From assembly GCA_025934355.1 (NCBI GenBank), contig JAICYF010000006.1, positions 1-40,010 of the forward strand: a stretch of 40,010 nt of DNA, in the 5' to 3' direction. The number at the start of each line of letters is the position of its first letter. Within the stretch, counting starts at the first letter, position 1. Source of the stretch: Acidothermaceae bacterium (GTDB lineage: Bacteria; Actinomycetota; Actinomycetes; Acidothermales; Acidothermaceae). Positions 19,673 to 37,141 of this stretch are shown here, piece by piece. The notes under the pieces were generated by a model. It saw only the letters and a list, made by a program, of their open reading frames with translations, was not told the DNA's origin and did no database searches. The position numbers and the translations under genes were made by a program.

Positions 19673-20141
19673 CGTCGTCCTCCAACGACAGCCGGGTGAC
19701 GATGGCGACGACGTCGGGAATCGCCGCGGCCACGGGCGGTGACAGTCGCTCCTCGTGCGGTACCGCGTCAAGCGAGACAGTGACCATCTTGGTCGGCGGC
19801 GCGTCGCCGTACAGCGCGTTCGTCAACGCCACAAGCGAGGCCGCGTCGACGTGGTGCGAAAACACGCCGGCCGCCGCGAAGTCGGGCTCAACGTCGACCA
19901 CGTGCACGGTGCCCGGCTCGTCACCGTCGGCCGCCGCGTCGATCAGAACGACGCGCGACGCGGAGGCGAAATCTGCCGCGAGCTCAGGCGTGAGCTGATG
20001 GATCGATAGCACGTCGACGTCGGCGAGCCGTTGTTCCAACGCAAGGAGATCTGCGACATACCAGCCAACGGCGTCGTCGCCTCGCATCGCGGTGCCGTAA
20101 CCGATGACGAGGGGACGACGCAACGCCGTGCCGGTCGTCAT
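19665..20141 (-). CDS. Hydrogenase maturation protease
   Basis: A 158-residue endopeptidase of the HyaD/HycI/HoxW family that removes the C-terminal extension of HoxH once nickel is inserted. Seen: VIGYGTAMRGDDAVGWYVA (usual GIGN replaced by GYGT; the two Asp kept), VVLIDAAADG (nickel-binding Asp) and FSHHVDAASL (His). Start ATG 20141 overlaps the hoxH stop as ATGA. It precedes hypA in the operon. The substrate should be the 24-residue tail of HoxH after His448. Confidence 0.9.
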   Translation of the reverse strand: MTTGTALRRPLVIGYGTAMRGDDAVGWYVADLLALEQRLADVDVLSIHQLTPELAADFASASRVVLIDAAADGDEPGTVHVVDVEPDFAAAGVFSHHVDAASLVALTNALYGDAPPTKMVTVSLDAVPHEERLSPPVAAAIPDVVAIVTRLSLEDDDA

Positions 20142-21556
20142 CGCGAGAGCACCCGGATCACGTCGCCGCGCGAGTCGACCAAGTCGACGATCATCGGCAT
20201 TTGTCCGGCGGCGTGGGTCGAGCAGGACAAACAAGGGTCGTAGCAGCGGATGACGGCCTCGACGCGGTTGAGCATCCCCTCCGCGACGTCCTCCCCATGC
20301 ACATACTTCTTCGCGACCTGAAGCACACCGGCGTTCATCGCCGACGCGTTGTGGCCGGTCGCAATCATCAGGTTGGCGGTCTGCACGATGCCGTCGTCGT
20401 CGACGACATACCGATGCATCAGTGTGCCGCGTGGCGCCTCCGCGACGCCGATGCCGATGTTGCGGTTGACCTGCGCGTTGGAAATCACCCGGTCGGAGAG
20501 GATGTCTGGATCCTTCAACAGCTGCTCGATCTTCTCGATCCCGTGCAGGATCTCGATCAACCGGGTGTGGTGATACAGGAACGAGCTGGAAGGCGTTGGG
20601 CCGAAGACCTTGCGGAACGACTCCAACTCGGCGTCCGCCCGCGGTGTGCCGAATCCCTTCGCCACCACGACGCGAGCCAGTGTTCCCACCCGATACATCC
20701 CGTCGGTCACACCGCGCGACAAGAGGTACGTCGGTTTGAGGAAGGACGCGTCATCGACGAACTCACCGAGGTGCTCGGCGTAGTCACGCGGATCGAACTC
20801 CGCGATGAGCGCGCCGTCGTGGTCGGCGATGCGCAGCCGGCCGTCGTAGTGTGTGACGTTGCCTTCATCTTCGACCATCGCCATAAACGCCGACTTGAAG
20901 TTTCCGAGGCTGGCCTCCTCCTCCGCCCAGCCCATCAGGTTGGCCTTGTACCAAGTCAGGGTGCGGTCGACCGCGGCGTATGCGTCGGGGATCATCGCGC
21001 GGATCTCGTCGCGCTTTTCGGCGGTGAGGGGTGTCTCCACTCCCCCAGGCACGATCCAGGCGGGGTGAATTCGCTTGCCCCCGAGGATCTCGATGACCCG
21101 CTGTCCGAACTTGCGCAGCAAGATGCCATCGCCGGCGAGTTGCGGGTTGGTGCGGGCGATGCCGACGATGTTGCGGGTCGCCGGGTCGGCGTCGAAGCCG
21201 AATACCAGGTCGGGCGCCGCAAGGTAAAACAGGCTCAACGAATGAGACTGCACGATCTGCGCCAGGTTCATCAGCTCACGAAGGTCGGAGCCGGTCTTCG
21301 GCGGCCGCACCGCAAGGATGCGATCGCACGCCTTCGCGGCCGCCACGAGGTGGCTGACCGGGCAGATGCCGCAGATGCGGGCCATCAGCGACGGCATCTC
21401 CGCGAATGGCCGGCCCTCGCAGAGCTTTTCGAAGCCCCTGAACTGCGTGACGTGAAAGTGCGCGTCGGCCACGTTGCCAGCGTCGTCCAACTGAATCGTG
21501 ATGCGCGCGTGCCCCTCGATCCTGGTGATCGGGTCGATCGTCAGTCTCCTGCTCAT
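20138..21556 (-). CDS. hoxH: NAD-linked [NiFe]-hydrogenase large subunit HoxH
   Basis: A 472-residue catalytic subunit holding the Ni-Fe(CN)2CO centre. The N-terminal ligand motif [10 protein letters not shown] gives Cys62 and Cys65; the C-terminal motif DPCLSCSTH gives Cys442, Cys445 and His448, the cleavage point for the protease. The 24 residues after His448 ([11 protein letters not shown] onward) are the maturation peptide. The gene partners place it in group 3d rather than 3b. Start ATG 21556; the longer open frame upstream is a shadow over hoxY. The gene begins 7 bp after the hoxY stop. Confidence 0.95.
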
Positions 21557-21563
21557 CGTCGGC

Positions 21564-22115
21564 TCAACCTCCGAAATGTGTTCCGACGGGCAACTCGGGT
21601 TTCTTTCCGTCAAGCAGCGCGACCAGCGCGTCGAAGATGACGTCGGCCGACGGTGGGCAACCGGGCAAGAACACGTCGACCTCGACCACCTTGTGCACCG
21701 GCAGTGTTCGCGGCAGGTGGTGCGGCACGTCATGCGTTGGTCGAACGACACCGTTGACGACGGCGGTCACGTTCTCGCCATACGCCCGTGCGTACAGCGG
21801 TTCCGCCGCGCCGCCGTCAATGGCGTTTCGCATTCCAGGCACGTTCGTCGTGAGCGCGCAATCGCCGAACGCGACCAGCGTCTTGCTCCGCTTGCGCACC
21901 ATCGTCACCCGCTTGAGGTCCTCGTCGGTCGACACCGCGCCCTCGACCAAGACCACGTCCACGTCGTCCGGGAAGATCTTGTTGTCGACGAGCGGGCTGT
22001 AGACGAGGTCGGCTCGCTCCGTGATGGTCAACAGCCGCTCGTCGATGTCAAGCAGCGACATGTGGCAGCCTGAGCAACCGTCAAGCCACACCGTCGCGAG
22101 CTTCGGCCGGATCAT
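21564..22115 (-). CDS. hoxY: Hydrogenase small subunit HoxY
   Basis: A 183-residue Fe-S subunit carrying the proximal [4Fe-4S] cluster that takes electrons from HoxH. Cluster Cys are seen in [14 protein letters not shown] (Cys14, Cys17), [12 protein letters not shown] and [10 protein letters not shown]. The short length, lacking medial and distal cluster domains, is normal for group 3 small subunits. No Tat signal, so cytoplasmic. Start ATG 22115 overlaps the hoxU stop as ATGA. Confidence 0.94.
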
Positions 22116-22822
22116 GCCGAGACCTCCTGCGAGTTTGTTTTCAAATAGGGCAGGTATGGTCGTGTGACCTTGGTGGTGGCGATGGGTCGGCCTTTCTCGA
22201 AGATGGCACCGGTTGGGCAGACTTGAACGCACTTGCCGCATCCGGTGCACGTCGTCGACTCACCCCACGGCATGCCAAGGTCGGTGACAACACGGGCGTC
22301 AAGCCCGCGACCCATCACGTCCCAGGTGTGCGCGCCTTCAACCTCGTCACACACCCGAACGCAGCGGGTGCACATGATGCAGCGGTTGTGGTCGATGGCA
22401 AAACGCTCGTGGCTGGCGTCGACGTCGAGCGCCGGATTTACCGTGTCAAGCTCGATGTGCGTCAGCCCGAGATCGGCCGCTCGCGCTTGCAGTTCGCAGT
22501 GGTTGTTGGCCACACACACCGCGCAAACGTGGTTCCGCTCGGCGAACAGCATCTCGATGATCGTCCGCCGGTAGGCGGTCAATCGCTTGGAGTCGGTGGT
22601 GACCTCCATGCCCTCCGCTACCGCCGTCGCGCACGACGGCAGGAGCTTCGAGGAGCCCTTCACCTCGACGACGCACAACCGGCAGGCACCCACGTCGCAC
22701 AAGCCGTCGAGGTGGCACAACGTCGGAATCTCGACACCTGACTCGCGCGCGACCTCGAGGACGGTTTGGCCCTCGACGCCAGCTCGCTCTACACCGTCGA
22801 TCGTAAGCGTGTGGACGGTCAT
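22112..22822 (-). CDS. hoxU: Hydrogenase diaphorase Fe-S subunit HoxU
   Basis: A 236-residue protein equivalent to the N-terminal part of NuoG. It shows a plant-type [2Fe-2S] domain (Cys36, Cys42, Cys47, Cys50, and Cys64), the His-ligated [4Fe-4S] region ([16 protein letters not shown]) and two ferredoxin-type [4Fe-4S] motifs ([24 protein letters not shown]). It passes electrons between HoxY and HoxF. Starts at ATG 22822, overlapping the hoxF stop by 4 bp. Confidence 0.95.
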
Positions 22823-24513
22823 GCCACGGACTCTCCTCCAGAGAGGGCGCAAACGCCCGCCGGACAAACGTGGTCGACGATGTGGGCCAGATACTCGTCA
22901 CGGAAGTACCGCAACGTTGAGAACACCGGGTTCGGCGCGCCTTGTCCCAGCCCACATAGGCTCGTGTCGCGCACCATCGCCGCGACGCTTTCCAGTTGCA
23001 CAAGGTCGGCGAGAGTGGCCCTACCTTCGGTAATTTTGGTGAGCATCATGTGCAACTCGGTCGTGCCGACTCGGCACGGCACGCACTTGCCACACGACTC
23101 CTCACGACAGAAGTCCATGAAATACCGGGCGACGTCGACCATGCACGAGGTGTCGTCCATGACGATCATTCCGCCCGATCCCATGAAGGATCCGGCCGCG
23201 AGGAGCGACTCGTAGTCGACGGACATGTCGAGCAAGTCCTCCGGAATGCAGCCGCCCGACGGACCGCCGGTCTGCACGGCTTTGAACTTGCGCCCGTCTG
23301 GGACGCCGCCGCCGATGTCGAAGATGACATCGCGCAGCTTGATCCCAAGCGGCACCTCTATCAGGCCGCCGTTCACGATGCGGCCAGCCAACGCGAACAC
23401 TTTGGTGCCGCGGCTCTTTCCGACGCCGACCTGCGCGTACGCCTCGCCGCCCTCTCGAAGAATCACCGGGACGCTGGCGAAGCTCTCAACGTTGTTGATG
23501 AGCGTGGGCTTGCCGCGCAGGCCGGACGCCGCTGGGAACGGCGGTCGCGGCACCGGTGTCCCGCGACCGCCTTGGATGGACGCGATCAGCGCCGTCTCCT
23601 CGCCGCAGACAAACGCCCCTGCGCCGAGTCGAAGCTCGACGGTGAACTTGAACGTCGACTGGGCGATCGCCGCGCCGAGGTAACCGGCCTTCTCCGCGCG
23701 ATGAATCGCGGCCTTCAGCCGCTGAACGGCGAGTGGGTACTCGGCGCGGCAATACACGTAGCCGTGGCTGGCGCCGACCGCGTACGCGGCGATCGCCATG
23801 CCCTCGAGGACGCGATAAGGATCGCTTTCCAACACCGATCGGTCCATGAAAGCGCCAGGGTCGCCCTCGTCGGCGTTGCAGACCACGTATTTCTCGCCGG
23901 ACGGTTGCTTTGCGACCGTCGCCCATTTCAAGCCCGTCGGGTAACCCGCGCCGCCGCGACCGCGCAACCCGCTTTTCGAAATCTCGTCGATCACTTGCTG
24001 CGGTGTCAGCTCGGTCACAGCGCGCGTGAGCCCGCGGTACCCCTTGCGCGACACGTAGTCGTCGATGTTCTCGGGGTCGACCTTGCCGCAGTTCTCCAGG
24101 ACGACGCGATGTTGGCGGGAGAAGAACGGCTCGAGCGCGGGCTTCGTCTCGACCGGCTTGGCATCCTTCAGCCTGGTGACGAGGTCGCTCACGTCGTCCG
24201 GTGAGACCTGCCTGAACAGCTCGCCGGTCTCGGGCACCTCGACCAACGGCCCGGCGGCGCACAGGCCGAGGCAGCCCACTCTTTTCACCGCGACGTCGGT
24301 GACGCCGTCGGCGATCAACTGCGCGGTGATCTCTTCGAAGACCTGGTCGGATTGCGCGGACAGGCAGCCGGCGGCCTGGCAGACCGCGGCGGTGGCTCGC
24401 GCGTGACCGACGACCTGCGGGCCGGTCATCCGCCTGGATCGCCTGACCGGTTTGTCGACGTCGGCTTCTCTCGCGCCTGGTACACCGTCGGTCGTAACGA
24501 GGTCGGTCACCAT
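22819..24513 (-). CDS. hoxF: NAD-reducing hydrogenase diaphorase subunit HoxF
   Basis: A 564-residue NuoF-like subunit binding FMN and NAD(H). N-terminal thioredoxin-like [2Fe-2S] domain ([17 protein letters not shown]), then the Rossmann-like NAD/FMN part ([51 protein letters not shown]), and the [4Fe-4S] region [16 protein letters not shown]. Start: GGAGGAATGGTG lets ATG 24513 or GTG 24510 serve (GTG has the better spacing); both overlap the hoxE stop. ATG 24429 (536 aa) is a later option. The open frame extends far upstream across hoxE, but that part is shadow. Confidence 0.94.
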
Positions 24514-24992
24514 TCCTCCAAACGCGCGATCACGTCGTCCGGCGCTTGCTTGCCTTTTGCCTCGCCGTCGTAGACGACCGCTGGCGCGATGCTGCACGCG
24601 CCGAGGCAACGGGCGGTCAGCAGAGAGATCTGGTTGTCGGCGGTGGTTTGTTTCGGGCCGATTCCGAACCGGCTGCGTATCCGGTTGAGGATCATCGTCG
24701 AACCCTTGATGTGGCACGCCGTTCCGGTGCACACAACGCAGGTGTGCTCGCCTTGCGGCCTCAGGGTGAACAGCGAGTAGAACGTCGCGACTCCATACGC
24801 CTTGCTGAGCGGCACATGCAGGGAGGTCGACACATAGCGCAGTGCGTCGTCGTCGAGGTAGCCGAACGATTGCTGCACGGTGTGCAACACCTCGATCAGA
24901 GCGTCCGGTCGGTGGCCAAGCCGGAGCATCCTCGCATCGACGGCGCGCCAGCGCTTGTCGTCCGTCGGAGCTGCAGGTCGCGTGGTCAACAA
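24507..24992 (-). CDS. hoxE: Hydrogenase diaphorase accessory subunit HoxE
   Basis: A 161-residue NuoE-like subunit with a thioredoxin-fold [2Fe-2S] site: VCTGTACHIKG and ARCLGACSIAP provide four Cys. Helical N-terminus (ALIEVLHTVQQSFGYL; HVPLSKAYGVATFYSLFTLRP) is the family hallmark. The start is unusual, TTG 24992 (or TTG 24989), six bases after GGGAGG; ATG in ARMLRLGH would be shorter. First gene of the operon hoxE-F-U-Y-H-protease-hypA, divergent from hypF. HoxE, where present, suggests the enzyme may also use ferredoxin or flavodoxin; that is from cyanobacterial work. Confidence 0.92.
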   Translation of the reverse strand: MLTTRPAAPTDDKRWRAVDARMLRLGHRPDALIEVLHTVQQSFGYLDDDALRYVSTSLHVPLSKAYGVATFYSLFTLRPQGEHTCVVCTGTACHIKGSTMILNRIRSRFGIGPKQTTADNQISLLTARCLGACSIAPAVVYDGEAKGKQAPDDVIARLEEW

Positions 24993-25060
24993 ACCGGGCC
25001 TCCCTCGATAGGTCGCATCGCCATCGGGTCGAGCAAACCGCTGCCGGCAACACGGCACTA

Positions 25061-25074
25061 GGGACGAAGGTCCG
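25061..25074. promoter_or_regulatory. DosR/DevR-box-like palindrome 1
   Basis: GGGACGAAGGTCCG matches the DosR/DevR core GGGACTWWAGTCCC at 11 of 14 positions, with a GGAC-N4-GTCC palindrome intact. It lies 68-82 bp upstream of the hoxE start. Paired with a second box at 25120-25133. Confidence 0.5.
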
Positions 25075-25119
25075 CGCGCACCCGGCAGACGGCCCTTGGA
25101 TCTCTTCGCACCAGCCAGA

Positions 25120-25133
25120 TGGACGAAAGTCCC
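25120..25133. promoter_or_regulatory. DosR/DevR-box-like palindrome 2
   Basis: TGGACGAAAGTCCC matches the DosR/DevR core at 12 of 14 positions; the palindrome is GGAC-GAAA-GTCC. It is 76-90 bp upstream of hypF ATG and 59 bp from box 1, so each divergent operon has one box at a similar distance. Confidence 0.55.
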
Positions 25134-25181
25134 TACCGTTTGGGGCTCGCGGACCTGTGTTTCGGAGAGGTGCGTGGCAGA

Positions 25182-25215
25182 GCGTTGTGCACATGAATGC
25201 GTTGTGCGCATGAAT
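25182..25215 (+). repeat. 17-bp tandem duplication at the hypF start
   Basis: GCGTTGTGCACATGAAT (25182-25198) is followed directly by GCGTTGTGCGCATGAAT (25199-25215); one base differs. Because 17 is not a multiple of three, the two ATGs are in different frames. The second is the hypF start. Confidence 0.8.
25193..25213 (+). CDS. Possible 6-codon leader peptide ahead of hypF
   Basis: The ATG in the first copy of the 17-bp repeat reads ATG AAT GCG TTG TGC GCA TGA (MNALCA) and its stop overlaps the hypF ATG as ATGA. It could couple hypF translation to ribosomes from the first start, or be an accident of the duplication. No ribosome site was seen close to either ATG other than GGAGAGG about 20 bases upstream. 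Confidence 0.3.
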   Translation: MNALCA

Positions 25216-27585
25216 GACGACGAGGGTCTTGCCGGCGCCCTCGCGGTCGTCGTCGGCAGGCCCGCCGATGAGGCGGCTTGGCGGCTCGACGTGCGAGGCA
25301 CCGTGCAGGGCGTCGGCTTTCGACCCTTCGTGTACCGGGTGGCTACCGAGCTCGGACTGAACGGCTCGGTTCGCAACGCCGGCGGCCACGTGCTGATCGA
25401 GGCCGCGGGCGACCGAGCCGCGCTGACCGAGCTGGCTCGCCGGTTGGCCGCGGACGCACCGCCCCTGGCACGCGTTCGCGAGGTGGTCGTCGCAGAGCTC
25501 GCCGCCGTCCCTCGTCACGGGCCCTTTCGCATCGAGCGGAGCAACGAGACAGGCACGGTGGCGAACGAAGTGCCGCCGGACATCGCAGTGTGCGCCGACT
25601 GCCTCGCCGAACTCACAGATCCGACCGATCGCCGCTACCGCTATCCGTTCATCAACTGCACGAACTGCGGCCCGCGAGCCACCATCATCGACGAGCTTCC
25701 ATATGACCGGTCACGCACCGCGATGCGGGGATTTCCAATGTGCGCCGAATGCCGACGCGAGTATGAGGACCCGTGGAATCGGCGGTTTCACGCCGAGCCG
25801 ATCGCGTGCCCGGCGTGCGGTCCGGCCCTCAGCTGGTCTGGTGCGCGCCTAGGAAGTGACGCGCACGGGGACCGAGCGCTGGCGGTTGCCGTGGCGGCAC
25901 TGCGTCACGGCGGGCTCATCGCGCTAAAGGGCTTGGGCGGCTATCAGCTTGTCTGCGACGCCACGAACCACGACGTCGTGCAGCGACTGCGCGAAGCCAA
26001 GCATCGTGCGGTGAAACCACTCGCGGTCATGGTCGCCGATCTTCACGCCGCACGCGCGCTCGCAGTCCTCAACGGCGCCGAGCGGATGCTGCTCAGCTCG
26101 TCTTGCGCTCCCATCGTGCTCGCCCAATCGCGCGCGGGTTCCCCACTTGCGGCGGCGATCAATCCGGGAACTCGCCGGCTTGGCGTGTTCTTGCCGAACA
26201 CGCCGTTGCACCACCTGCTCATGACCGACGTCGGGCGTCCGCTGGTTGTGACGAGCGGCAATCTGGCCGACGAGCCGATGGCGATCGACGACGACGCCGC
26301 GGGCCTTGCGCTCTCCGACATCGTCGACGGTTTTCTGACCCACGACCGACCGATCAGAAACCGTTACGACGACTCGGTGATCCACGTCGTGGAGGGCGAG
26401 CCGCGGATGATCCGGCGCGCGCGTGGTTACGCGCCGGCGCCGCGCGCACTGCCGGTTGCCTCGGGGGTTCCATTGCTCGCCGTGGGCGCGGAGTTGAAAC
26501 ACACGTTCACGCTCGCCGCCGACGGGCGCGCCGTGGTGTCGCCGCACATTGGCGACCTTGAGAACGCCGAGGCGTACGGGGCATTCACCACCTCGGTGCG
26601 GCGACTAAGCGCCCTGGTGGGGATCACGCCGCAGGTAGTCGTGCACGACTACCACCCGTCTTACCTGTCGACCCAATACGCGCGTGGCTGGGACGTCGGC
26701 AAGCGGATGGAGGTGCAGCACCATCACGCTCACGTGGCGGCCAGCGCCGCGGAGTTCGGCGTCGACCGTCCGTTTATCGGCGTCGCCTACGACGGGCTTG
26801 GCATGGGCGACGACGGAACGCTTTGGGGCGGCGAGGTGCTCATCGCCGACCTTCAGCGATACCGCCGGATAGGCCGGTTCTCCCTGGCGCCGTTGCCCGG
26901 TGGCGCGGTGGCAGTCAAACGCCCGGTGCGCATGGCACTCGCGTACCTGTTGGGCGGCGAGACCTTTGACCTGCCCGCAGAACGACGCAACGGCAGCGGC
27001 GAGCTCTGGGGGGCGGCTCGTGAGGTGTTGGCGCGCGTCGACGAGCGGGAGTTCGCCGTCGTCGGCAAGCTCATCGCCGCTCGGCTGAACTGCCCGCCCG
27101 CGTCGAGCGCGGGTCGGCTGTTCGATGCCGTCGCCAGTCTGCTCGGGTTGCGCGACGAGACCACATTCGAAGGTGAAGCGGCGATCGCGCTCGAGGAAGT
27201 CGCATCGGCCGATGACTGCGGCGAACTGCCATGGACCTTGCGCAACGTCCAGGGTCTTTGGGTTTACGACGTCCGACCCACGCTGTCGGCGGTCGTTGAC
27301 TCCGTTCGCGGCGAAGTGCCGGCCAGCGTCACGGCCGCTCGGTTCCAAGCGACGGTCGTGGCCGTGACGGCGGCCTTCTGCGACGCCGCGCGAACGTCCA
27401 CCGGCATCAACGAGGTGTGCCTCGGCGGCGGCGTGTTCCAAAACCGCAAGGTCGCGGACGACGTCAGGTCGACGCTGAGCGCGGACGGCTTTGACGTTTA
27501 CCTCGGCAGGGAGATCCCCGTCAACGACGGCGGAATCAGCTTCGGACAGGCCGCGATCGCGGCCGCTCGCACGGCACGGAGATGA
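25210..27585 (+). CDS. hypF: Carbamoyltransferase HypF
   Basis: A 791-residue enzyme that turns carbamoyl phosphate into the cyanide ligands of the [NiFe] centre, together with HypE. Domains in order: acylphosphatase (LDVRGTVQGVGFRPFVYRVA), two zinc fingers (CADCLAEL with NCTNCGPRAT; CAECRREYED with IACPACGPAL), YrdC-like domain (GLIALKGLGGYQLVCDATN), and a Kae1-like carbamoyltransferase domain (QHHHAHVAASAAEFGV; VCLGGGVFQNRKV). Start ATG 25210. The frame remains open upstream to 25096, but that covers the DosR-like boxes. First gene of hypF-C-D-E. Confidence 0.95.
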   Translation: MNDDEGLAGALAVVVGRPADEAAWRLDVRGTVQGVGFRPFVYRVATELGLNGSVRNAGGHVLIEAAGDRAALTELARRLAADAPPLARVREVVVAELAAVPRHGPFRIERSNETGTVANEVPPDIAVCADCLAELTDPTDRRYRYPFINCTNCGPRATIIDELPYDRSRTAMRGFPMCAECRREYEDPWNRRFHAEPIACPACGPALSWSGARLGSDAHGDRALAVAVAALRHGGLIALKGLGGYQLVCDATNHDVVQRLREAKHRAVKPLAVMVADLHAARALAVLNGAERMLLSSSCAPIVLAQSRAGSPLAAAINPGTRRLGVFLPNTPLHHLLMTDVGRPLVVTSGNLADEPMAIDDDAAGLALSDIVDGFLTHDRPIRNRYDDSVIHVVEGEPRMIRRARGYAPAPRALPVASGVPLLAVGAELKHTFTLAADGRAVVSPHIGDLENAEAYGAFTTSVRRLSALVGITPQVVVHDYHPSYLSTQYARGWDVGKRMEVQHHHAHVAASAAEFGVDRPFIGVAYDGLGMGDDGTLWGGEVLIADLQRYRRIGRFSLAPLPGGAVAVKRPVRMALAYLLGGETFDLPAERRNGSGELWGAAREVLARVDEREFAVVGKLIAARLNCPPASSAGRLFDAVASLLGLRDETTFEGEAAIALEEVASADDCGELPWTLRNVQGLWVYDVRPTLSAVVDSVRGEVPASVTAARFQATVVAVTAAFCDAARTSTGINEVCLGGGVFQNRKVADDVRSTLSADGFDVYLGREIPVNDGGISFGQAAIAAARTARR

Positions 27586-27876
27586 ATGCGGATGTGTCTT
27601 GGGATACCGGGTCGGGTGACCTCCGTCGTGGACGACGCGGGCCTGCGCACCGGGGTTGTCGACTTCGGCGGTGTGCGTCGAGAAGTCTGCCTCGCTTACG
27701 TGCCGGACGCTGCGGTCGGCGACTACGTGGTCGTGCACGTCGGGTTTGCCATCAGTCGGCTCGATGAAGACGTGGCGCTGCGCACACTGGAAATCATCGC
27801 CGCGATGCCGGGGGCGATGGAGCAGGAACTCGGGCCGGCCGGGAACAGCGGCGCCCCGATCGGAGGTGCGGCGTGA
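27586..27876 (+). CDS. hypC: Hydrogenase assembly chaperone HypC
   Basis: A 96-residue chaperone, likely in complex with HypD, that brings the Fe(CN)2CO unit to HoxH. The essential Cys follows the second Met in MCLGIPGRV; a start at ATG 27592 rather than 27586 would put it at position 2, as in other HypC proteins. The fold is the usual small beta-barrel ([29 protein letters not shown]). It begins 1 base after the hypF stop and ends overlapping the hypD GTG as GTGA. Confidence 0.93.
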
Positions 27877-28994
27877 AATACGTCGAGGAGTACCGCGACC
27901 CGCAACTCGCTCATCAACTGCTTGAGCAGATCCACGCGGTCACGACGAAGCCGTGGAATCTGATGGAGGTGTGCGGCGGCCAGACGAACACGATTGTGCG
28001 GCAAGGCATTGACGACGTGTTGCCGGCCGGCCTTCGGATGGTGCACGGCCCGGGCTGCCCAGTTTGCGTCACGCCACTGGAGATGGTCGACAAGGCGTGC
28101 GCCATCGCGACCCGGCCTGAGGTCACGTTCACCAGTTACGGCGACATGTTGCGGGTGCCCGGGTCACACAGCGACCTGCTTTCGCTGAAGGCTCGCGGCG
28201 CCGATGTCCGGGTCGTCTACTCCCCCATGGAGGCGGTGCGCATCGCCCGCGAAGACCCGAGCCGCGAGGTCGTGTTTTTCGCGGTTGGTTTTGAGACAAC
28301 CGCACCAGCAAACGCGATGGCGGTGATCCGCGCCCGCGAGCTCGGCTTGACGAACTTCAGCATTCTGGTGAGCCATGTTCTGGTGCCGCCGGCGATGACG
28401 TCGATCCTTGACGACGAGGACTGCGAGATCGACGCGTTTCTTGCCGCCGGGCATGTGTGCGCGGTGATGGGCTGGCGTGAATACGAGCCGATAGCGGCGC
28501 AGTACCGGGTGCCGATCGTGGTGACCGGGTTCGAGCCGCTCGATTTGCTGGAAGGAATCCTGATGGCGGTTCGCCAGCTCGAAACCGGTCGTGCCGAGGT
28601 CGAGAACCAATACATCCGTGCGGTTCGCCGCAATGGAAATGAGCACGCGCAAGACGCGATCCGAACCGTCTTTCGGGTTGATGACCGCACCTGGCGTGGC
28701 GTGGGTCAGATCCCGGGCAGCGGTCTTGAGCTCGCCGCTGACTTCGCGGAATTCGACGCGGCCAGGCGGTTCGCGGTCGACGGCATCGAGACCCTGGAGA
28801 ATCCGGCGTGCATCGCCGGATCGATCTTGCGTGGCACCAAACTGCCGACCGACTGCCCGATGTACGGCATCGCGTGCACGCCGCGCTCGCCGCTCGGCGC
28901 GCCAATGGTTTCAAGCGAAGGAACATGCGCCGCGTTCTTCAATGCCGGACGGGTGGCCGAAGCGACGCCGGCGACCGTAGGGAGCATGACATGA
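27873..28994 (+). CDS. hypD: Hydrogenase formation protein HypD
   Basis: A 373-residue Fe-S scaffold on which the Fe(CN)2CO group is built with HypC and HypE. Family motifs: [15 protein letters not shown] (catalytic Cys), [11 protein letters not shown], a [10 protein letters not shown] segment, [13 protein letters not shown] and the C-terminal cluster region with CAGS-like [24 protein letters not shown]. Length is normal. Start is GTG 27873 overlapping hypC; stop overlaps hypE as ATGA. Confidence 0.95.
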
Positions 28995-30073
28995 CTACCA
29001 CCGACCTCCCCCGCGAGGCAGCCGGATTCAACGGCGCCAACTGTCCGGTGCCGCACGCTGAAGCTGAGCGGGTGCTACTTGGTCACGGTTCTGGTGGCTT
29101 GCTCTCGGCTGAGTTGCTGCGTGACGTCATCATTCCCGCGCTCGGGTCAGCGGCTCCGAGTGGCGCCCTCGAAGACGGCGCGGTCGTTCACGTGTCATCG
29201 CAAGACCTGGTGCTGAGCACCGACTCGTTTGTCGTCAGTCCGCTGTTCTTCGCCGGTGGAGACATCGGCACGCTCGCGGTTCACGGCACGGTGAACGACC
29301 TGGCGATGATGGGTGCGATGCCGGTGGCGTTGACTGTCGCATTCGTGATCGAAGAAGGCTTTCCCATCGCCGACTTGCGCCGGGTCTGCATGTCGATCGG
29401 CGATGCCGCCTCGGCCGCCGGGGTACCCGTCGTCACTGGCGACACCAAGGTGGTCGGGAAGGGCGCGGCCGACGGATTGTTCGTGACGACCACCGGGTTG
29501 GGCCATCGGCTGCCTGGGTTGACACCGAGTGCCGAGCGGGCGAAAGTCGGCGACGTCGTCATCGTGTCAGCACCGATTGGCGCGCACGGCACGACCATTC
29601 TCAGCACTCGCGCAGGGCTGGAGTTCGAGGCTGACATCGTTTCTGACACCCGTCCGCTGCACTGGCTGGTCGCCACGATGGCGACGGCCGCCAGTCATGC
29701 GATTCACGTCTTGCGTGATCCCACTCGCGGCGGAGTCGCGTCGACGCTGAATGAGATAGCGCAAAGCTCGGACGTGCGGATTCGCTTGGAGGAGGCGGCA
29801 ATTCCGATTCCGGCAGCGGTTGGCGCGGTGTGCGAAATGCTCGGGCTCGATCCGTTGCACGTCGCGAACGAGGGGTGTCTGCTCGCTGTCGTGAGCCCCG
29901 ACGCAGCGGATCGGGTGCTCGCCGCCATGCGCACCCTGCGTGCCGGTCAGGATGCGCGGGTGATCGGTGAGGTGATCGATGGCAGCGGTCCGCGCGTCGT
30001 CATGCACACCAGGATCGGCTCGAATCGGATCGTCGACATGTTGATCGGCGAGCAGCTTCCCCGGATCTGTTAG
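28991..30073 (+). CDS. hypE: Carbamoyl-dehydratase HypE
   Basis: A 360-residue PurM-like ATP-dependent enzyme that dehydrates the carbamoyl group on its C-terminal Cys to a cyanide donor. Seen: [12 protein letters not shown] at the N-terminus, [20 protein letters not shown] and [40 protein letters not shown], and the C-terminal PRIC whose final Cys is the acceptor. Start ATG 28991 overlaps hypD. The stop (TAG 30071-30073) shares bases with the opposing operon's stop. No hypA or hypB follow. Confidence 0.95.
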
Positions 30074-31509
30074 GCGGAGCGAGTCGCCGCCGTTCGGCAA
30101 TCGCCGCAGCGACCGTCTTCGGGCACCCGCACGCCGACGTCCGCCAGCCGCGCCATCAGTCCGGGAGCGGCCAACCGCGCGCCGCACACGACGCACCGGC
30201 GAAGGCTGGTTGACACGAGTTCTCGCGCGACATGCAAGTCGGCTGGTTGCACACCTCGGCGCAGCGTCAACGCATGCTCGGGACAGCGGATCACACAGCT
30301 TCCGCAGGCCGCACATCTCGCGTGGGCGAATGACAACGTCCAGGACGACGGCCACTCGGTCGCCTTCAGCGCCCCGGTCGGGCAATGTTCGGCGCATAGC
30401 CCGCAGGCCGTGCAGGATTGATCGGCGCAGGTGACGACACCAAGGGGCGCCCGCTCAGAGGCGATGAACGTGCGTGCCGACGGCGGAAAGTTGACAAGCG
30501 CATCTTCCGTGCCGGCGGGCTCTCGAAGAACAAGCGCGGACGACGACGGCGTCGAGGGAAGGCCGGCAGCCAATGCGGCGAGCAGTCGCGGCGTCGGATC
30601 GCCAGGGCCCCATGCGTCGCCGGCCGCGCCACACGACGTGACGGTCACTTGAGCCGCCCCGCGCGACAGCGGTTGCAGGATCCACGCTGGCGTGAGCGCC
30701 CGCACGCACGGCACGCGCAGCCGCAGCCACGCGGTGCTCGGTTGAGGTCTCGGTGGATCGGCGACGTCGGAGCAACTCCACCAAATGCCAACGGGCAGAC
30801 CGACTTCGCGCGCGCCAACGAGCACATGCTGCACGAAGGACTCCCATATTTGACGCGGCATCGTCGGAGTCTCAAGCAGATCCCGTGGGCAGGCGAGCAC
30901 GCACGCGCCGCAACCGTCGCACGCGCTCGCGTTGACTCTGGGGACGCCGTCGTCCATGAGAAGCGCGGATGTCGGGCACGCTTCGACGCACAGCCGACAC
31001 CCCGCGCTGACGCAGCAACGCTCGCCGACTAGGCGTGGTGTCGGACGTTGTTCACGGAGCCTGCCGGTCAACACCGCACGGCGACTGACGCCGCCAGCGG
31101 TCGGCGTGAAACCGTTCAAAATCGCCGCGACGGAAGAACCGACGAGTGCGGCGGACGACGCAGTGGCGGCGGCTAGCTTGGCCCATTGCCCGACATCGTC
31201 AGAATGCAGGTCTGTGGGGTCGATGATGACGATGCGCGCGGCCACCGCCGACGACTCGTTGACTCGGTCGCGCAGACGCACGGCACGCGGATGGCCGCGA
31301 TGCGACCGGCACGGCAGCAAGACGACGAAGTCGTCGGCGTGCTCGCGCAACGCCCCGAACAGGGCCCGTGAGCCGGTGCACAGGTCTTTCACCGTCTGCG
31401 ACGACGCTCTGGGCGCGAGGTGGCGCAGGTACTCACGCGGCGAGGGCGAAGACCCCGGTTCGTGGCCGTCGCACACCAAGATGACGACCCGCTCGCCGGT
31501 TTGAGCCAT
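30070..31509 (-). CDS. Multi-cluster Fe-S protein of the molybdoenzyme operon
   Basis: A 479-residue cytoplasmic protein. Residues 1-~180 are an unrecognised domain (ERVVILVCDGHEPGSSP; a Cys in VVLLPCRSH; SSVAAILNGFTP). Then come two ferredoxin-type sites (CRLCVEACPTSAL; CDGCGACVLACP), a middle region like the methyl-viologen-reducing hydrogenase delta domain (VPCVRALTPAWILQPLSRGA), two more sites near residues 370-430 (CTACGLCAEHCP; CAACGSCVIRCP) and a zinc-ribbon-like end (CVVCGARL; CGDC). Up to four [4Fe-4S] clusters are predicted, suggesting an electron-transfer hub. ATG 31509 overlaps the torD-like stop as TAATG. Last gene of the operon; its stop overlaps that of hypE. Function is inferred, not recognised. 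Confidence 0.7.
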   Translation of the reverse strand: MAQTGERVVILVCDGHEPGSSPSPREYLRHLAPRASSQTVKDLCTGSRALFGALREHADDFVVLLPCRSHRGHPRAVRLRDRVNESSAVAARIVIIDPTDLHSDDVGQWAKLAAATASSAALVGSSVAAILNGFTPTAGGVSRRAVLTGRLREQRPTPRLVGERCCVSAGCRLCVEACPTSALLMDDGVPRVNASACDGCGACVLACPRDLLETPTMPRQIWESFVQHVLVGAREVGLPVGIWWSCSDVADPPRPQPSTAWLRLRVPCVRALTPAWILQPLSRGAAQVTVTSCGAAGDAWGPGDPTPRLLAALAAGLPSTPSSSALVLREPAGTEDALVNFPPSARTFIASERAPLGVVTCADQSCTACGLCAEHCPTGALKATEWPSSWTLSFAHARCAACGSCVIRCPEHALTLRRGVQPADLHVARELVSTSLRRCVVCGARLAAPGLMARLADVGVRVPEDGRCGDCRTAATRSA

Positions 31510-32162
31510 TATGAATGCGCGGCCCGGGCGTCGACGTGGTGAGCGAGCGCGTCGATCCAGCAGGGTGTCAGTTCCGCGAGCGCCTGGTAGTACGGGTGCC
31601 TTGCCGCCGTCTGAACGGCGGCGCAAAAGCGCGGCACCCACCGAGCGAGATGCTCGGTGATCAGCGCATGGGCGACGGCGGGTCCGCGATTTCGCTCAAG
31701 GCACCACGTCAGCGCCTCGGTCTCCACGACGAGGTGGTCGGGCAACTCCCCCGGGTGGGGTCGCATCGTGAGACCGGCTCGGTGGTACAGGTTGAGCACA
31801 GCGCCTGCGGCCGATCCCATCATGATGCCGCGTTCCGGCGGAGCGTCGTCCATCCACATTGACTCGTAGGGCGGGCACGGCACGCGGCCCGGACCGACAA
31901 ACAACCGTTCGTGTTCGTCCGCGAGACCTGGTGTGTCGGTCGCCATCGCGAGCGCGATGATTTTCTCCGGGTCGATCCCAAGTCGAACCGCCGCCGCGAC
32001 CGCCGCGGCGCTCGCCGGATCGGACCGCTGTTCTCGGCTCGCCTGCACGAGCGGCGACCCGGCCGCGGGCTCGTCGAACGGGTCAGACCACCACTCGGCC
32101 AGCAGTTGCGCCGTGGCCCAGATTGGAAAGGTCTCAGGCAACATGGGAGAAGCCGTTGTCAC
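31509..32162 (-). CDS. TorD/DmsD-family molybdoenzyme chaperone
   Basis: A 217-residue cytoplasmic chaperone that holds the catalytic subunit until cofactor insertion and Tat export. Family sign: EHERLFVGPGRVPCPPYESM near residue 83, followed by the helical NLYHRAGLTM, HPGELPDHLVVETEALTW and WVPRFCAAVQTAARHPYYQA. Start GTG 32162 overlaps the NrfD gene as GTGA. Its presence supports a Tat-exported cofactor-bearing partner, which is the molybdopterin protein at the head of the operon. Confidence 0.88.
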   Translation of the reverse strand: MTTASPMLPETFPIWATAQLLAEWWSDPFDEPAAGSPLVQASREQRSDPASAAAVAAAVRLGIDPEKIIALAMATDTPGLADEHERLFVGPGRVPCPPYESMWMDDAPPERGIMMGSAAGAVLNLYHRAGLTMRPHPGELPDHLVVETEALTWCLERNRGPAVAHALITEHLARWVPRFCAAVQTAARHPYYQALAELTPCWIDALAHHVDARAAHS

Positions 32163-33442
32163 GTGAGGACCTTCCGTGGTTCGGGGATAGGCGACTCAAC
32201 GGTGATCCCCGGCACCGGATGTGACTCGGTCGGCCGCGAGAGCACCTTCAGTCGGCGGTAGCCGACCGTGATGAACGCAGCCAACAAGGCGAACATCCCA
32301 ACGACGATCGCGATCTCGACCCAGGTCGGGTGATAGCCGCCGGTGTACACGAATGATGACTTGTCGCTTTGGTATGAGCCCTTTGCGATGCCGGGAGGCA
32401 GTTGGATGATGGGTCGCACAAGCCCGCCGACAACGAGCTCGATGCGGTAGGCGTAGACACCCACCATGGCGAGCAACGCGGCCAGCGCGACGAGCGCGCG
32501 AGACGCGCGAAGTCGCGGTGTCATAAGCAGCACGAGCGGCGCGACACCGCCGACGATCCACTCCAGCCAGAAGACCGTTTGCCACGACCCGCCAGGCAAG
32601 ATGAGATTCAACGCGGCGCGCTCACGCGGGACGTTTCCCCACAAGATCGTGATGTAGTCGCATGCGACAAGGAACAGGTCGACAAACAAGCTCACCACGA
32701 GCAGATTTGAGACAACCCGCCAGGTCTGCTCCGGCACCCGGACGTGAGCGAACCGTTGTGCGGCAATCGCGGCGACCGCCACCAACGCGGTGCCTGACAG
32801 GATCGCTGATGTGACGAACAACGGCGCCATCAACGCCGTGTTCCACCACGTGCGGGCGATTTGCAGCCCGAAGATCCATGCGGTGATGGAGTGAAGCAGC
32901 ACAGCGGTCGGCAGGCCGATGTAGGCGAGCACCCGCACGGTCTTCGCCAGCCCCGTCGGTGACGTGTCGCGGCGATGCAGCACAGTGAGGTCGACAGCGG
33001 CGAACAAGAAGTACGTCGCGATGATCCCGACGTCCCAGATCAACGGCGACTGCCAGTGTGGATACGCGACCAGGTTGAGGATCCGGTCGGGCCTTCCGAG
33101 ATCTGGGATGATCATCAACCCAGCGCATGTGATCGACGCCAACGCCGTCAGCACGCCGAGTTTCGACAGCGGCTTCAACGACTGGACGCCGAACACTTCG
33201 GCCGCCGACGCGACGATGAGCCCGCCGGCAGACAGACCGACGAAGAACGCGAAGGTGACGATGTAAGCGCCCCACGACACGACGTCCCTCATGCCGGTGA
33301 CGCGCAGGCCTTGCGTCAGCTGATAAATCCAGGTTCCCAATCCGAGTGCGACAAGAAGCCCGAGCAGCGCCGACCACGCCTCGAGTCTGCGCAGAGCCGC
33401 CTTCGGATGACGCGCGTGTGCAGCAGCCGTCATGCCCATCAC
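32159..33442 (-). CDS. nrfD: NrfD/PsrC-type quinone-interacting membrane subunit
   Basis: A 427-residue integral membrane protein with about ten helices. It shows the N-terminal YQLTQGLRVTGMRDVVSWGA, GLSAGGLIVAS, the PDLGRPDRILNLVAYPHWQS stretch typical of the family, PTAVLLHSITAWIFGLQIAR and a C-terminal KGSYQSDKSSFVYTGGYHPT outside loop. NrfD-type anchors exchange electrons between the quinone pool and an outer Fe-S subunit without heme. GTG 33442 overlaps the ferredoxin stop as GTGA. Confidence 0.9.
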   Translation of the reverse strand: MMGMTAAAHARHPKAALRRLEAWSALLGLLVALGLGTWIYQLTQGLRVTGMRDVVSWGAYIVTFAFFVGLSAGGLIVASAAEVFGVQSLKPLSKLGVLTALASITCAGLMIIPDLGRPDRILNLVAYPHWQSPLIWDVGIIATYFLFAAVDLTVLHRRDTSPTGLAKTVRVLAYIGLPTAVLLHSITAWIFGLQIARTWWNTALMAPLFVTSAILSGTALVAVAAIAAQRFAHVRVPEQTWRVVSNLLVVSLFVDLFLVACDYITILWGNVPRERAALNLILPGGSWQTVFWLEWIVGGVAPLVLLMTPRLRASRALVALAALLAMVGVYAYRIELVVGGLVRPIIQLPPGIAKGSYQSDKSSFVYTGGYHPTWVEIAIVVGMFALLAAFITVGYRRLKVLSRPTESHPVPGITVESPIPEPRKVLT

Positions 33443-34173
33443 GAACCACTCCCGCTTTGGGCCGATCCGTCAGTCAGGTCGCGACGACCGGCAGGTTGGT
33501 AGAAGACGTCGGGTTTGGTGCCGAGCTCATCGAGGACCCGTTGTGCGCCCTCCTCATTGACCAGCTTGCTGACCTCGCTGGCGGGATCGTTGAGGTCGCC
33601 AAAGACGCGGGCGCCCGCCGGGCACTGCTTCACGCAGAATGGCTCCTGGCCGGCATCGAGCAGTTCGGCGCACATCGTGCATTTCTCCACCACGCCGCGC
33701 GGTCGTTCCGGCGTGAAGACAAGGCGGCCGTCTGAGCGATAGTCCTTGGCGTAGCCAACCGGGAATTCGTCAGCATGCTTGGCGTCGCCCCAGTTAAACA
33801 CCCGTACGCCGTACGGACACGCGGCGATGCAGTACCTGCAGCCGATGCACCGCTCGTAGTCGATGAGCACCACTCCGTCGTCACGGCGGAACGTCGCCCC
33901 TACCGGGCACACCTTCACGCACGGCGCGTCTTGACAGTGCTGGCATGCGGTCGGTTGGTAGGCGAGCGAGAGATTCGGGAACTCCCCCGCGGGCACATCG
34001 ATGTTGTCACTCGCCGGAGCGTTCGCTTCGGGCGCCGGTGGTGCCGTGAGAACACGGTTCCACCAAAAGCCAAGTGGCTGGTTGTTGATTTCTTTACATG
34101 CCACCGCACACGTCCAGCAGCCTACGCATCGGCTCTGGTCGATGACCATTCCCCAGCGCTTCCCGTCAGCCAT
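33439..34173 (-). CDS. Four-cluster ferredoxin-type electron transfer subunit (DmsB/PhsB-like)
   Basis: A 244-residue Fe-S subunit linking the molybdoenzyme to the NrfD anchor. Four ferredoxin-type motifs are visible: CVGCWTCAVACKE, CQHCQDAPCVKVCPVGA, CIGCRYCIAACPYGVR and CTMCAELLDAGQEPFCVKQC. No signal peptide; such subunits ride out with the Tat-borne partner. A C-terminal tail (ELGTKPDVFYQPAGRRDL) is common to family members. Starts at ATG 34173, six bases after the catalytic gene's stop. Confidence 0.92.
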   Translation of the reverse strand: MADGKRWGMVIDQSRCVGCWTCAVACKEINNQPLGFWWNRVLTAPPAPEANAPASDNIDVPAGEFPNLSLAYQPTACQHCQDAPCVKVCPVGATFRRDDGVVLIDYERCIGCRYCIAACPYGVRVFNWGDAKHADEFPVGYAKDYRSDGRLVFTPERPRGVVEKCTMCAELLDAGQEPFCVKQCPAGARVFGDLNDPASEVSKLVNEEGAQRVLDELGTKPDVFYQPAGRRDLTDGSAQSGSGS

Positions 34174-34179
34174 GACGAC

Positions 34180-36669
34180 TCAGCCCTTCACTCGCTCGAC
34201 CTGCACGAGGCAGTCGAAATAGGCGGCATTTGAACGGAAGTTCGGGACCACTGCCTGCGTGGGATTCGCGATCTGATGGGTCAGATTGTTTGGATGACCC
34301 TCGATGTAGTGCTTGATCTTGACGGTGTCCCAGCCGCCTTGGTAGCAGTTGACCACCCCTGGTTTGATGCTCTCCGTCAACCGCGCGTATACCTTCATAA
34401 CACCGCGGTCGTTGTAGACCCGCACGACGTCGCCGTCGCTAACGCCGCGGGCGTTCGCGTCTTTCGGGTTGATCTCAAGGAATCCTTGCCCGCCGTTGTT
34501 GATTTCCTTGAGCCAGGGCAGGTTGCTGTACTGCGAATGCGTCCTGAACCTGGTGTGGGTGCTCAGAAAGACGAGCGGGTACTTGCTGAACAGCGGGTTC
34601 GTTGGCGACGCCTCGATCGGTTCCTTGTGGTCGCACACCGCTTGGTCGAATGGCACGAGCATCTCGACGTAGAACTCGATCTTTCCCGTCTTCGTCGGGA
34701 ATGACTTGTCGAAGAACGGCACATAAGGGATTGTCGGTGTGTTGCGATGCGGCGCTCCCTCCGTCAACTGCGACCAGGTCAATCCCGCGACGTTGCTGTC
34801 GGCCTCCGGATCGCCGATGTGCAAGATCTCCTTGAGATAGTCGTCGGCTGTCTTGTCGAAGTACTGGCCGACACCCATCTTCTGCGCGACAAGGGTCACG
34901 GCGTCAAGGTCGGACTTCGACTCCCACAGCGGGTCGATAATCTTCGGCATGTACTGCAAGTAGAAGTTGTTGCTTGACAGCAGGTCGGTCTTCTCCAGGT
35001 AGGTGCACGCCGGGAGCACGATGTCGGCGAGATCGGCTGTCGCCGACATCACGTAGTCAGAGACGACGAGGAAGTCGAGCGACTTCAAAGCCTTCACAAC
35101 CTTGTTGCGGTCAGACATCTGCTGCGCGTAGTTGTCCACCATGAACCAGGCGGCCCGAACCGGATACGGCTTGCCATCGAGCATGGCGTCGCATGCCTCC
35201 ATGGGCTCGAGAACGGTGAAGGACGTCGTTCCCTCGGGCGCCCACCACCCGGGCAGGTCGAACGCCGTCGTCGTGAGCCCACCGGCGAAGGTCGTGACGC
35301 CACCGCCATGGACGCCGATGTTGCCGCCTAAGGCCTGCAAAGTGAGGAGCGCTTGCATGGTGAGGTCGCCGTGGTACCAGTGCGAGAGGCCGAAGCCGGC
35401 GCGGATTCCGACCGGGTGGTTGCTCGCGAACAGGCTGGCAAGCGTGTTCACCTGCTCTGCGGTGAGGTCGGTCAGTGCGGCGGTGTGCTCGGGCGTGTAC
35501 TTCGCCATCGTGTCGGCCAGCACTTGAAATGCCGTTGACGCTGACATGGCGCCGACGTTGAAGGTGCCGAGAAGTTGCGTCGACTTCGGGTCCGCCGCAC
35601 CGACCGCCTGGGGTTTGCCGTCGGCACCGACAACGACATAGTCGTCCTTGCCCGGCAGCCCGATTTCCGTGGTGCGCAACAGCTTCTTCGTTTGCGGGTG
35701 AACCAGGTACGGGGCGACCGTGTAGGCCCGCAGGTATGCCTCGTCGTACGCCTTGTGCGTGATGAGGTAGTTGATGACGCCGTCGATGAGCGCGGTGTCG
35801 GAGCCCGGCCGGGCCGGCAACCACAGGTCGGCCGCTGCCGAGGTTGGGGTGAAGCGTGGGTCTACGACGACCAGTTTCGCGCCCTTCTTCTTGGCGTCGA
35901 CGATGGTGCGCCAGTCCGGGATCGAGGTTTCGGCTACGTTGTTGGCCCACAGGACGATCAGATTGGAGTTGAGGAAGTCGGTTCCCTCGTGACCGTCGAA
36001 CAGCCCGCCGCCGTTATCGGGGTTCGTCGGATCGACGAGAACGTAATTCCATCCGGCAGGCGTCGCCGAGTCTCCTTGGTTGTCGCCTTCGAAGTCGCCC
36101 GCGGACGCGCCGATCACGCTGGCCAACCGGAAGCCGACACCAACCACACCTTCGAGCAGCGACAGCGAACCGGTGTAGGGGGCGATCCAGACTGAGCGTT
36201 TGCCGTACTTGTCTTGGATCGCGCCAAACTTCTGCGAGATCGTCGACGCGGCCTCCTCCCAGCTGATCCGCTCCCACTTGCCTGAGCCGCGCTCGCCGAC
36301 ACGCCGGTATGGGTACTTCACGCGGTCAGGGCTGTAGGTGTTCTGAATCTGGCTCAGACCACGTATGCAGATGCGCGGGTTGAACTTCTGCGCGATCGCC
36401 CCCGAGATGGCGGTGTCCTCCCACGGGGCGGCCTTCACCATCACAGGGTGACCGTTTTCGACCTCGACAAGGTGGCCGCAGGCGCCGTCGCAGTTGTTGG
36501 AGTGGCCGGTTCGAAAGACCTGTCGTGGTGCCGACGTCGTGGCGGCAGCGGCGACGCCGGCGCCCTCGGGCTCGGACGCGAAAAGGAAACGCAGCCGTGG
36601 GCCCGCGGCGATCACGCCAGCTCCGACCGCCATCCCGCCAAGAAAATGTCGCCGACGGATCTCAACCAC
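34180..36669 (-). CDS. Molybdopterin oxidoreductase, DMSO-reductase family catalytic subunit
   Basis: An 829-residue bis-MGD enzyme, outside-facing. Tat signal RRRHFLGGMAVGAGVI at residues ~5-20. Cluster motif is His-x3-Cys-x3-Cys (GHSNNCDGACGH) with a later Cys (ICIRGLSQ), i.e. the first Cys of DmsA-type enzymes is His, as in NarG-type enzymes. Next comes YSPDRVKYPYRRVGERGSGK and WEEA. Where DmsA has its Mo-ligating Ser, this protein reads GDFEGDNQGDSATPAG, with Asp residues and no Cys; an Asp ligand is my inference. Later: VLWANNVAETSIPDW, ADIVLPACTYLEK, HTRFRTHSQYSNLPWL and the C-terminal GVSDGDVVRVYNDRG. Start GTG 36669. Substrate (S-oxide, thiosulfate, polysulfide, nitrate-like or other) unknown. 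Confidence 0.88.
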   Translation of the reverse strand: MVEIRRRHFLGGMAVGAGVIAAGPRLRFLFASEPEGAGVAAAATTSAPRQVFRTGHSNNCDGACGHLVEVENGHPVMVKAAPWEDTAISGAIAQKFNPRICIRGLSQIQNTYSPDRVKYPYRRVGERGSGKWERISWEEAASTISQKFGAIQDKYGKRSVWIAPYTGSLSLLEGVVGVGFRLASVIGASAGDFEGDNQGDSATPAGWNYVLVDPTNPDNGGGLFDGHEGTDFLNSNLIVLWANNVAETSIPDWRTIVDAKKKGAKLVVVDPRFTPTSAAADLWLPARPGSDTALIDGVINYLITHKAYDEAYLRAYTVAPYLVHPQTKKLLRTTEIGLPGKDDYVVVGADGKPQAVGAADPKSTQLLGTFNVGAMSASTAFQVLADTMAKYTPEHTAALTDLTAEQVNTLASLFASNHPVGIRAGFGLSHWYHGDLTMQALLTLQALGGNIGVHGGGVTTFAGGLTTTAFDLPGWWAPEGTTSFTVLEPMEACDAMLDGKPYPVRAAWFMVDNYAQQMSDRNKVVKALKSLDFLVVSDYVMSATADLADIVLPACTYLEKTDLLSSNNFYLQYMPKIIDPLWESKSDLDAVTLVAQKMGVGQYFDKTADDYLKEILHIGDPEADSNVAGLTWSQLTEGAPHRNTPTIPYVPFFDKSFPTKTGKIEFYVEMLVPFDQAVCDHKEPIEASPTNPLFSKYPLVFLSTHTRFRTHSQYSNLPWLKEINNGGQGFLEINPKDANARGVSDGDVVRVYNDRGVMKVYARLTESIKPGVVNCYQGGWDTVKIKHYIEGHPNNLTHQIANPTQAVVPNFRSNAAYFDCLVQVERVKG

Positions 36670-36874
36670 GATGACTTACCTCTCGCTCAGGACCGTCGTT
36701 GCCCCGACTGCGGCCACGCCCTCGCCACGAATATTCGACAGGGTCGTCCTCGGCGGGAGCGTGAAATAATGCCAAATGGAGGACGGAGGAGGGTCTTCGG
36801 TCCTGAGTCTTTGCGTACCGCCGCTGGCTACCGTGGATGTTGTATATAAACCGCCGCTATTGCCGAGGTGTGAG

Positions 36875-37141
36875 ATGGCCGACTCGCTTGACGACTGGAC
36901 TCGCGCGATGTGCGAGGTCCTGGAGTTGGACCCCGACGGAGTCGACCGCGACGCCATCCTTGACCTGGCGAAGGCCGCGGCGCACCGGGTGGCTCGCCCC
37001 GCCGCGCCGCTGACTACCTATCTGGTGGGGCTCGCGGTCGGCAAAGCGGGCGGCGACGCAGCCGCGTTCACTCGCTCCGCGTCCGTGGCAGAGCGGCTGA
37101 CGGAGGGCTGGCAGGTGCCGCTCGAGACTGGTGGCGACTGA
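36875..37141 (+). CDS. Small conserved protein, DUF6457-like
   Basis: An 88-residue protein (MADSLDDWTRAMCEVLELDP, then AILDLAKAAAHRVARPAAPL, then TYLVGLAVGKAGG). It is helical and matches the small domain found beside, or fused to, molybdenum-cofactor guanylyltransferase MobA in actinobacteria; that would fit the divergent molybdoenzyme, but MobA is absent here. ATG 36875 is chosen over the upstream 36776 ATG because the domain begins there; TATATAA at 36843-36849 is a likely -10. The last 124 bases overlap the feoC-like gene in antisense. Confidence 0.7.
   Translation: MADSLDDWTRAMCEVLELDPDGVDRDAILDLAKAAAHRVARPAAPLTTYLVGLAVGKAGGDAAAFTRSASVAERLTEGWQVPLETGGD

Follow-up and report, generated by a model that had tools for sequence, protein, structure and literature searches.

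A conserved NrfD-anchored branch of the DMSO-reductase molybdoenzyme family, chiefly from acidic-soil and mine-water microbes

Introduction

The haloarchaeal Dms complex is needed, as the product of dmsREABCD, for growth of Halobacterium on DMSO/TMAO (PMC1971269), and an Asp ligand has been reported for the Mo of the haloarchaeal DMSO/TMAO reductase (PMC6650914, PMC10100899). The Halomicrobium loci compared here (L008 and L011; in the latter a regulator and then a small Fe-S gene precede A, B, NrfD and TorD, in that order) were equated with the tested DMSO reductase by operon order, not by a match to Halobacterium DmsA. E. coli DmsABC is a membrane-anchored A-B-C complex with a four-cluster B and a TorD/DmsD-family chaperone; its Mo ligand is Ser, its first FS0 ligand Cys and its anchor DmsC. 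The type II enzymes (PcrA, NarG, ClrA and EbdA) have H-x3-C-x3-C at FS0, an Asp aligned with PcrA Asp170, an aromatic FYDWY loop, a B subunit with 15 Cys and a heme b subunit as anchor.

Here we describe a branch of the DMSO-reductase molybdoenzyme family, most of whose hosts live in acidic soils and mine waters, starting from a 40,010-nucleotide stretch of DNA of an Acidothermaceae bacterium (the window; GCA_025934355.1, contig JAICYF010000006.1, positions 1 to 40,010). The clade is genuine and conserved, and the literature searched contained no description of it; its parts are known, and their arrangement is close to that of the haloarchaeal Dms complex.

Results and Discussion

Gene organization of the operon

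The operon and its divergent neighbor comprise the following genes:

34180..36669, minus strand: A, catalytic molybdopterin subunit of 829 aa with a GTG start (PF00384 and PF01568)
33439..34173, minus strand: B, Fe-S subunit of 244 aa with 16 Cys in four cluster motifs (family matches and subunit comparison)
32159..33442, minus strand: C, NrfD/PsrC-type quinol-interacting membrane anchor of 427 aa (PF03916, 182 bits)
31509..32162, minus strand: D, TorD/DmsD-type chaperone of 217 aa (PF02613)
30070..31641, minus strand: E, accessory polyferredoxin with Fer4 domains (family matches)
36776..37141, plus strand: DUF6457 protein, divergent from A (PF20058, 83.7 bits)

The E ORF as listed overlaps D, and its true start is probably nearer 31505. 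The NrfD gene sits two genes downstream of A, and family matches revealed no heme b gamma subunit among the operon genes, the anchor being NrfD instead. Taken together, the families concerned (A with its Tat motif, B, the NrfD anchor and the TorD chaperone) suggest an extracytoplasmic quinol-linked oxidoreductase. The DUF6457 ORF, for whose product we would guess an accessory role, also lies upstream of the operon in clade locus L045, and beyond it in the window lies feoB. B scores just above the NCBIfam DsrO cut-off (200.6 vs 200), so automatic annotation may label it a sulfate-reduction protein; no dsrA above cut-off was found in the window's genome, which is 84% complete (best 42.8 vs 392.85 bits).

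On the polyferredoxin side, HoxFUYH-like NAD-linked hydrogenase genes together with hypF, hypD and hypE adjoin the operon (20138-30073), and H2 oxidized by this hydrogenase could be an electron source. Elsewhere in the same genome, contig C51 carries a full-length NarG gene followed by ORFs of narH, narJ and narI size (narG alone was family-tested, the other three being named by ORF size), which makes a cytoplasmic nitrate reductase probable for this organism as well.

Distribution and conservation of the clade

One scan of GTDB-representative contigs yielded 26 related loci with 64-74% identity in A, 24 of which hold most of the gene. Their hosts are mainly metagenome-assembled genomes (MAGs) of Actinomycetota and Bacillota, many of them, judged by isolate names, from palsa, bog, soil and mine sites; the one isolate is Acididesulfobacillus acetoxydans. 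In an even sample of 397 genomes from the window's phylum, non-window matches at E <1e-80 were just 33-36% identical, indicating that the clade is rare and patchy, and the two other genomes of the window's family gave no match at 1e-50.

The A-B-NrfD-TorD order recurs at every clade locus whose contig reaches far enough, and 13 of the 26 scanned loci also have a polyferredoxin homologue behind D. H-x3-C-x3-C is kept in 22/23 trimmed clade rows (the remaining row lost this part in trimming, and the motif is present in its untrimmed ORF), with HSNNCDGxCG in every row covering the FS0 motif, and D.[EQ]GDN[EQ]GDS is present in 23/23 rows as well as in the window. Conservation of both the FS0 motif and the Mo loop across the clade shows that they are no sequencing accident.

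Actinomycetota clade loci are flanked by moeA, moaA-like and DUF6457 genes, beyond which these flanks gave no clue to the substrate. A sensor kinase of uncertain type lies near the operon in locus L054. Three loci (L038, L051 and L057) combine a clade-typical A (71-74%) with clearly more distant B and NrfD; the partners in L057 are ~49% (B) and ~42% (NrfD) identical to those of the window, and the B subunits of L038 and L051 group with that of L057. An exchange of the membrane module is possible at these three loci.

Motifs and predicted structure of the catalytic subunit

The following elements were located in A:

36634..36657, minus strand: Tat motif RRRHFLGG, residues 5-12 (read from the sequence)
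36478..36504, minus strand: FS0 motif HSNNCDGAC (H56-SNN-C60-DGA-C64), of the form H-x3-C-x3-C
36367..36369, minus strand: Cys101 (in PRICIRG), fourth FS0 ligand, invariant in the clade alignment
36067..36099, minus strand: putative Mo-ligand loop GDFEGDNQGDS, residues 191-201, Cys-free (alignment with PcrA)

R6, R7 and F9 of the Tat motif are invariant in a 19-member clade alignment. An earlier note on this DNA had claimed a His-x3-Cys-x3-Cys cluster motif, an Asp-rich, Cys-free GDFEGDNQGDS and an NrfD anchor, and each was found where the features above place it. Its description of A as DmsA-spaced proved inexact, the gap between the third and fourth cluster ligands being 36 residues in A vs 32 in E. 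coli DmsA (counted by hand), with 34 in two NarGs and 33 in PcrA. His56, invariant in the clade, aligns in sequence with PcrA His32 and would be an FS0 cluster ligand. When A is aligned with solved structures, D200 pairs with PcrA Asp170, a Mo ligand, and on this sequence alignment Asp200 is the putative Mo ligand of A. The loop around it is strongly acidic and lacks the FYDWY aromatics found in nitrate and perchlorate reductases, and the aromatic gate positions of PcrA, Tyr165 and Trp461, are Glu and Leu in A.

The best NCBIfam match of A, the type II DMSO reductase family TIGR03479, remains far under cut-off (361.8 vs 984.75 bits). PcrA is its best PDB match and the top match (TM 0.79-0.80 over the query) of an AlphaFold2 model with a mean pLDDT of 84.5, followed by EbdA and then NXR. 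Structure prediction had been proposed in the earlier note as a means of seeing which residue meets Mo; an overall PcrA-like fold match was obtained, but the Mo-contacting residue could not be read from the model, in which the Mo loop region (residues 194-225) has a pLDDT <50 and is disordered without cofactor.

EbdA being the next match after PcrA in both sequence and structure, the complex might run in reverse, dehydrogenating or hydroxylating an organic or sulfur compound in the manner of EbdA/DdhA and passing the electrons to menaquinone. Asp-ligated relatives do include hydroxylases (PMC10100899), and a non-aromatic pocket could take a larger organic substrate. We nevertheless consider this improbable: the genes flanking the operon include no recurrent catabolic family, B differs from the type II kind (16 Cys, separate branch), and the likely orthologue in A. 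acetoxydans is induced by a change of acceptor.

Phylogenetic placement and comparison with described complexes

In a careful tree of catalytic subunits the clade is monophyletic (support 100/100), and A falls inside no sampled characterized clade, a phylogeny having been another check put forward in the earlier note. The references were DmsA, NarG, ClrA, PcrA and EbdA, without SerA, DdhA, named PhsA/PsrA or Halobacterium DmsA (Q9HR74), and sulfur-type enzymes were represented solely by unnamed A. acetoxydans rows. The type II enzymes, joined by two further rows, form a separate branch without the clade (100/99), neither group includes E. coli DmsA, and the clade is placed, with weak support, together with haloarchaeal Dms-type and Eggerthellaceae-like enzymes. 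Forcing the clade and type II together cost 11.3 log units (p-AU 0.11), so a sister relation of the two is not rejected, although the clade lies outside the sampled type II enzymes in the tree. The B tree likewise places the clade apart from type II B subunits, with its sister not resolved.

With type II the clade has in common the FS0 motif, the Asp aligned with PcrA Asp170 and its closest solved structure, PcrA, whereas it differs in the NrfD anchor, the 16 Cys of B and the missing aromatic loop. The reading of the His as a NarG/type II trait is correct insofar as NarG, PcrA, ClrA and EbdA all have it, but Eggerthellaceae-like rows share H-x3-C-x3-C and the tree separates the clade, and type II membership inferred from the His alone was rejected on these grounds. 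Membership of the Ser-ligated DmsA group was ruled out by the ligand residues, Ser and a Cys FS0 being absent, and by the tree: the clade resembles E. coli DmsABC in its membrane-anchored A-B-C build, four-cluster B and TorD/DmsD-family chaperone, whereas the catalytic subunits are ~28% identical and branch separately.

The haloarchaeal Dms-type loci share with the window the A-B-NrfD-TorD order and a 16-Cys B, and their B and C are the nearest subunits found outside the clade. The window's B shares 50-51% identity with haloarchaeal Dms-type B vs 30-35% with DmsB/ClrB/PcrB-like subunits, and NrfD is 36-38% identical to its haloarchaeal counterparts vs 27-28% for the other NrfDs compared. The combination of ligands and anchor that had been thought an odd mix is less unusual than it seemed, haloarchaeal Dms-type enzymes being reportedly Asp-ligated and NrfD-anchored too. 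The catalytic subunits, in contrast, are ~33% identical and form separate clades, with Cys as the first FS0 ligand and GIDTNVG as the Mo loop in the haloarchaeal enzymes vs His and D.EGDNEGDS in the clade. The upstream HTH regulator and small Fe-S gene of the haloarchaeal loci were not seen at the window operon, which differs from them also in its polyferredoxin.

The operon of Acididesulfobacillus acetoxydans

The isolate carries the clade operon at 3.532-3.537 Mb (3532073-3537216) of its complete chromosome, with an A 68% identical to that of the window. Locus tags were assigned by position, using hcp, dsrP, narG and ackA as anchors. Linear interpolation between narG (DEACI_1355, 1.480 Mb) and ackA (DEACI_3414, 3.688 Mb) puts DEACI_3268-3271 at ~3.5315-3.5347 Mb; counting ORFs alone gave a tag of ~3285 for A, but ORF calling under-counts genes. 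The next-closest NrfD match, at 3.398 Mb, is ~100 genes off. This positional evidence strongly supports DEACI_3268-3271 as the clade operon, with A, B, NrfD and TorD as in the window; behind TorD, no homologue of the polyferredoxin was detected.

DMSO, nitrate, selenate, arsenate, thiosulfate and sulfur, but not perchlorate, are reported as acceptors of A. acetoxydans. Its chromosome holds 11 PF00384 matches, in which Asp occupies the Mo position in NarG and the clade member only, seven have Cys and two an in-frame TGA; no Ser-type DmsA/TorA was seen among them. One of the Cys-ligated enzymes could be the DMSO reductase of this organism.

Candidate substrates

We tentatively favor, with a probability of about 0.42, a menaquinol:S-/N-oxide reductase of the Asp-ligated DMSO-reductase class, extracytoplasmic and NrfD-anchored. 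In the proposed mechanism, A would fold with the help of TorD and leave the cytoplasm along with B by the Tat route, menaquinol would be oxidized at NrfD, and electrons would move along the four Fe-S clusters in B, then the His/Cys FS0 in A, and finally reach Mo-bisMGD on Asp200; orientation, electron path, Mo ligand and substrate are all predictions. The most likely substrates would be S- or N-oxides of the DMSO/TMAO type, as in the related haloarchaeal Dms complex, because B and C are related to the subunits of that complex, A. acetoxydans grows with DMSO yet shows no Ser-type DmsA/TorA, and the Mo loop lacks the aromatics of nitrate and perchlorate reductases. The identity of ~33% between the catalytic subunits and their not firmly resolved relation in the tree weaken this assignment.

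It is weakened further by the reported inducer of the likely orthologue, which is nitrate and not DMSO: DEACI_3268-3271, described as of unclear function, are ~13-fold up on nitrate vs sulfate (PMC10949509). If the positional match holds, this points to the main rival, a reductase acting outside the cytoplasm on nitrate, or on a nitrogen oxide derived from it at low pH, alongside cytoplasmic NarGHI. In contig G442:C34 the operon stands in the order narGHJI, SLAC1 channel, hemerythrin, LuxR regulator, operon, NarK-like transporter, and in G440:C54 narGHJI lies ~8 kb upstream of it; both belong to one Bacillota lineage, which limits the weight of this synteny, and the L081 copy of the NarK-like gene has NarK as its best family at 149.9 bits, under the cut-off of 311.7. 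NarG above cut-off is encoded in 14 of 23 clade genomes, that of the window included, and in pieces in one more, but was not found in eight, mostly bog and palsa MAGs that may be incomplete. In A. acetoxydans, moreover, the authors credit NarGHI with nitrate reduction, and the strongly acidic loop without FYDWY aromatics fits such a substrate poorly. On balance we regard a nitrate-linked role as rather unlikely. Expression and synteny could be reconciled with an S-/N-oxide reductase if, as we guess, the operon answers a redox or nitrate signal and not its substrate.

The remaining acceptors of A. acetoxydans (selenate, arsenate, thiosulfate and sulfur) are also candidates, the more so as an Asp-ligated selenate reductase, SerA, exists (PMC10100899). 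ArrA-type arsenate enzymes, however, are listed as Cys-ligated (PMC10100899), several Cys-type candidates are available in this organism, the acidic Mo loop disfavors oxyanions, and expression of the likely orthologue is lower on sulfate than on nitrate (PMC10949509), so that we hold a reductase of one of these acceptors to be very doubtful. Less doubtful, though still unlikely, is a separate extracytoplasmic family with an acceptor of its own outside the substrates now assigned to the DMSO-reductase family, which the acidic DxEGDNEGDS loop and a His-ligated FS0 would serve.

A conserved respiratory complex of this kind in acidic soils, peat and mine waters would add an electron-acceptor route that is at present overlooked or mislabelled in genome annotation. 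The clade has a cultured member whose operon, provided the positional match holds, is strongly regulated by nitrate, which makes the substrate question directly testable.

More distant relatives

Deeply branching Asp-type relatives were found at L063 (three ORFs), L028 and L033, the latter two also with H-x3-C-x3-C at FS0, and one Desulfonema-labelled contig bears three Asp-type relative genes in a row. On an Alisedimentitalea plasmid (L010), a PcrA-like gene encoding Asn at the His/Cys position of FS0 adjoins a gene of the chlorite-dismutase family.
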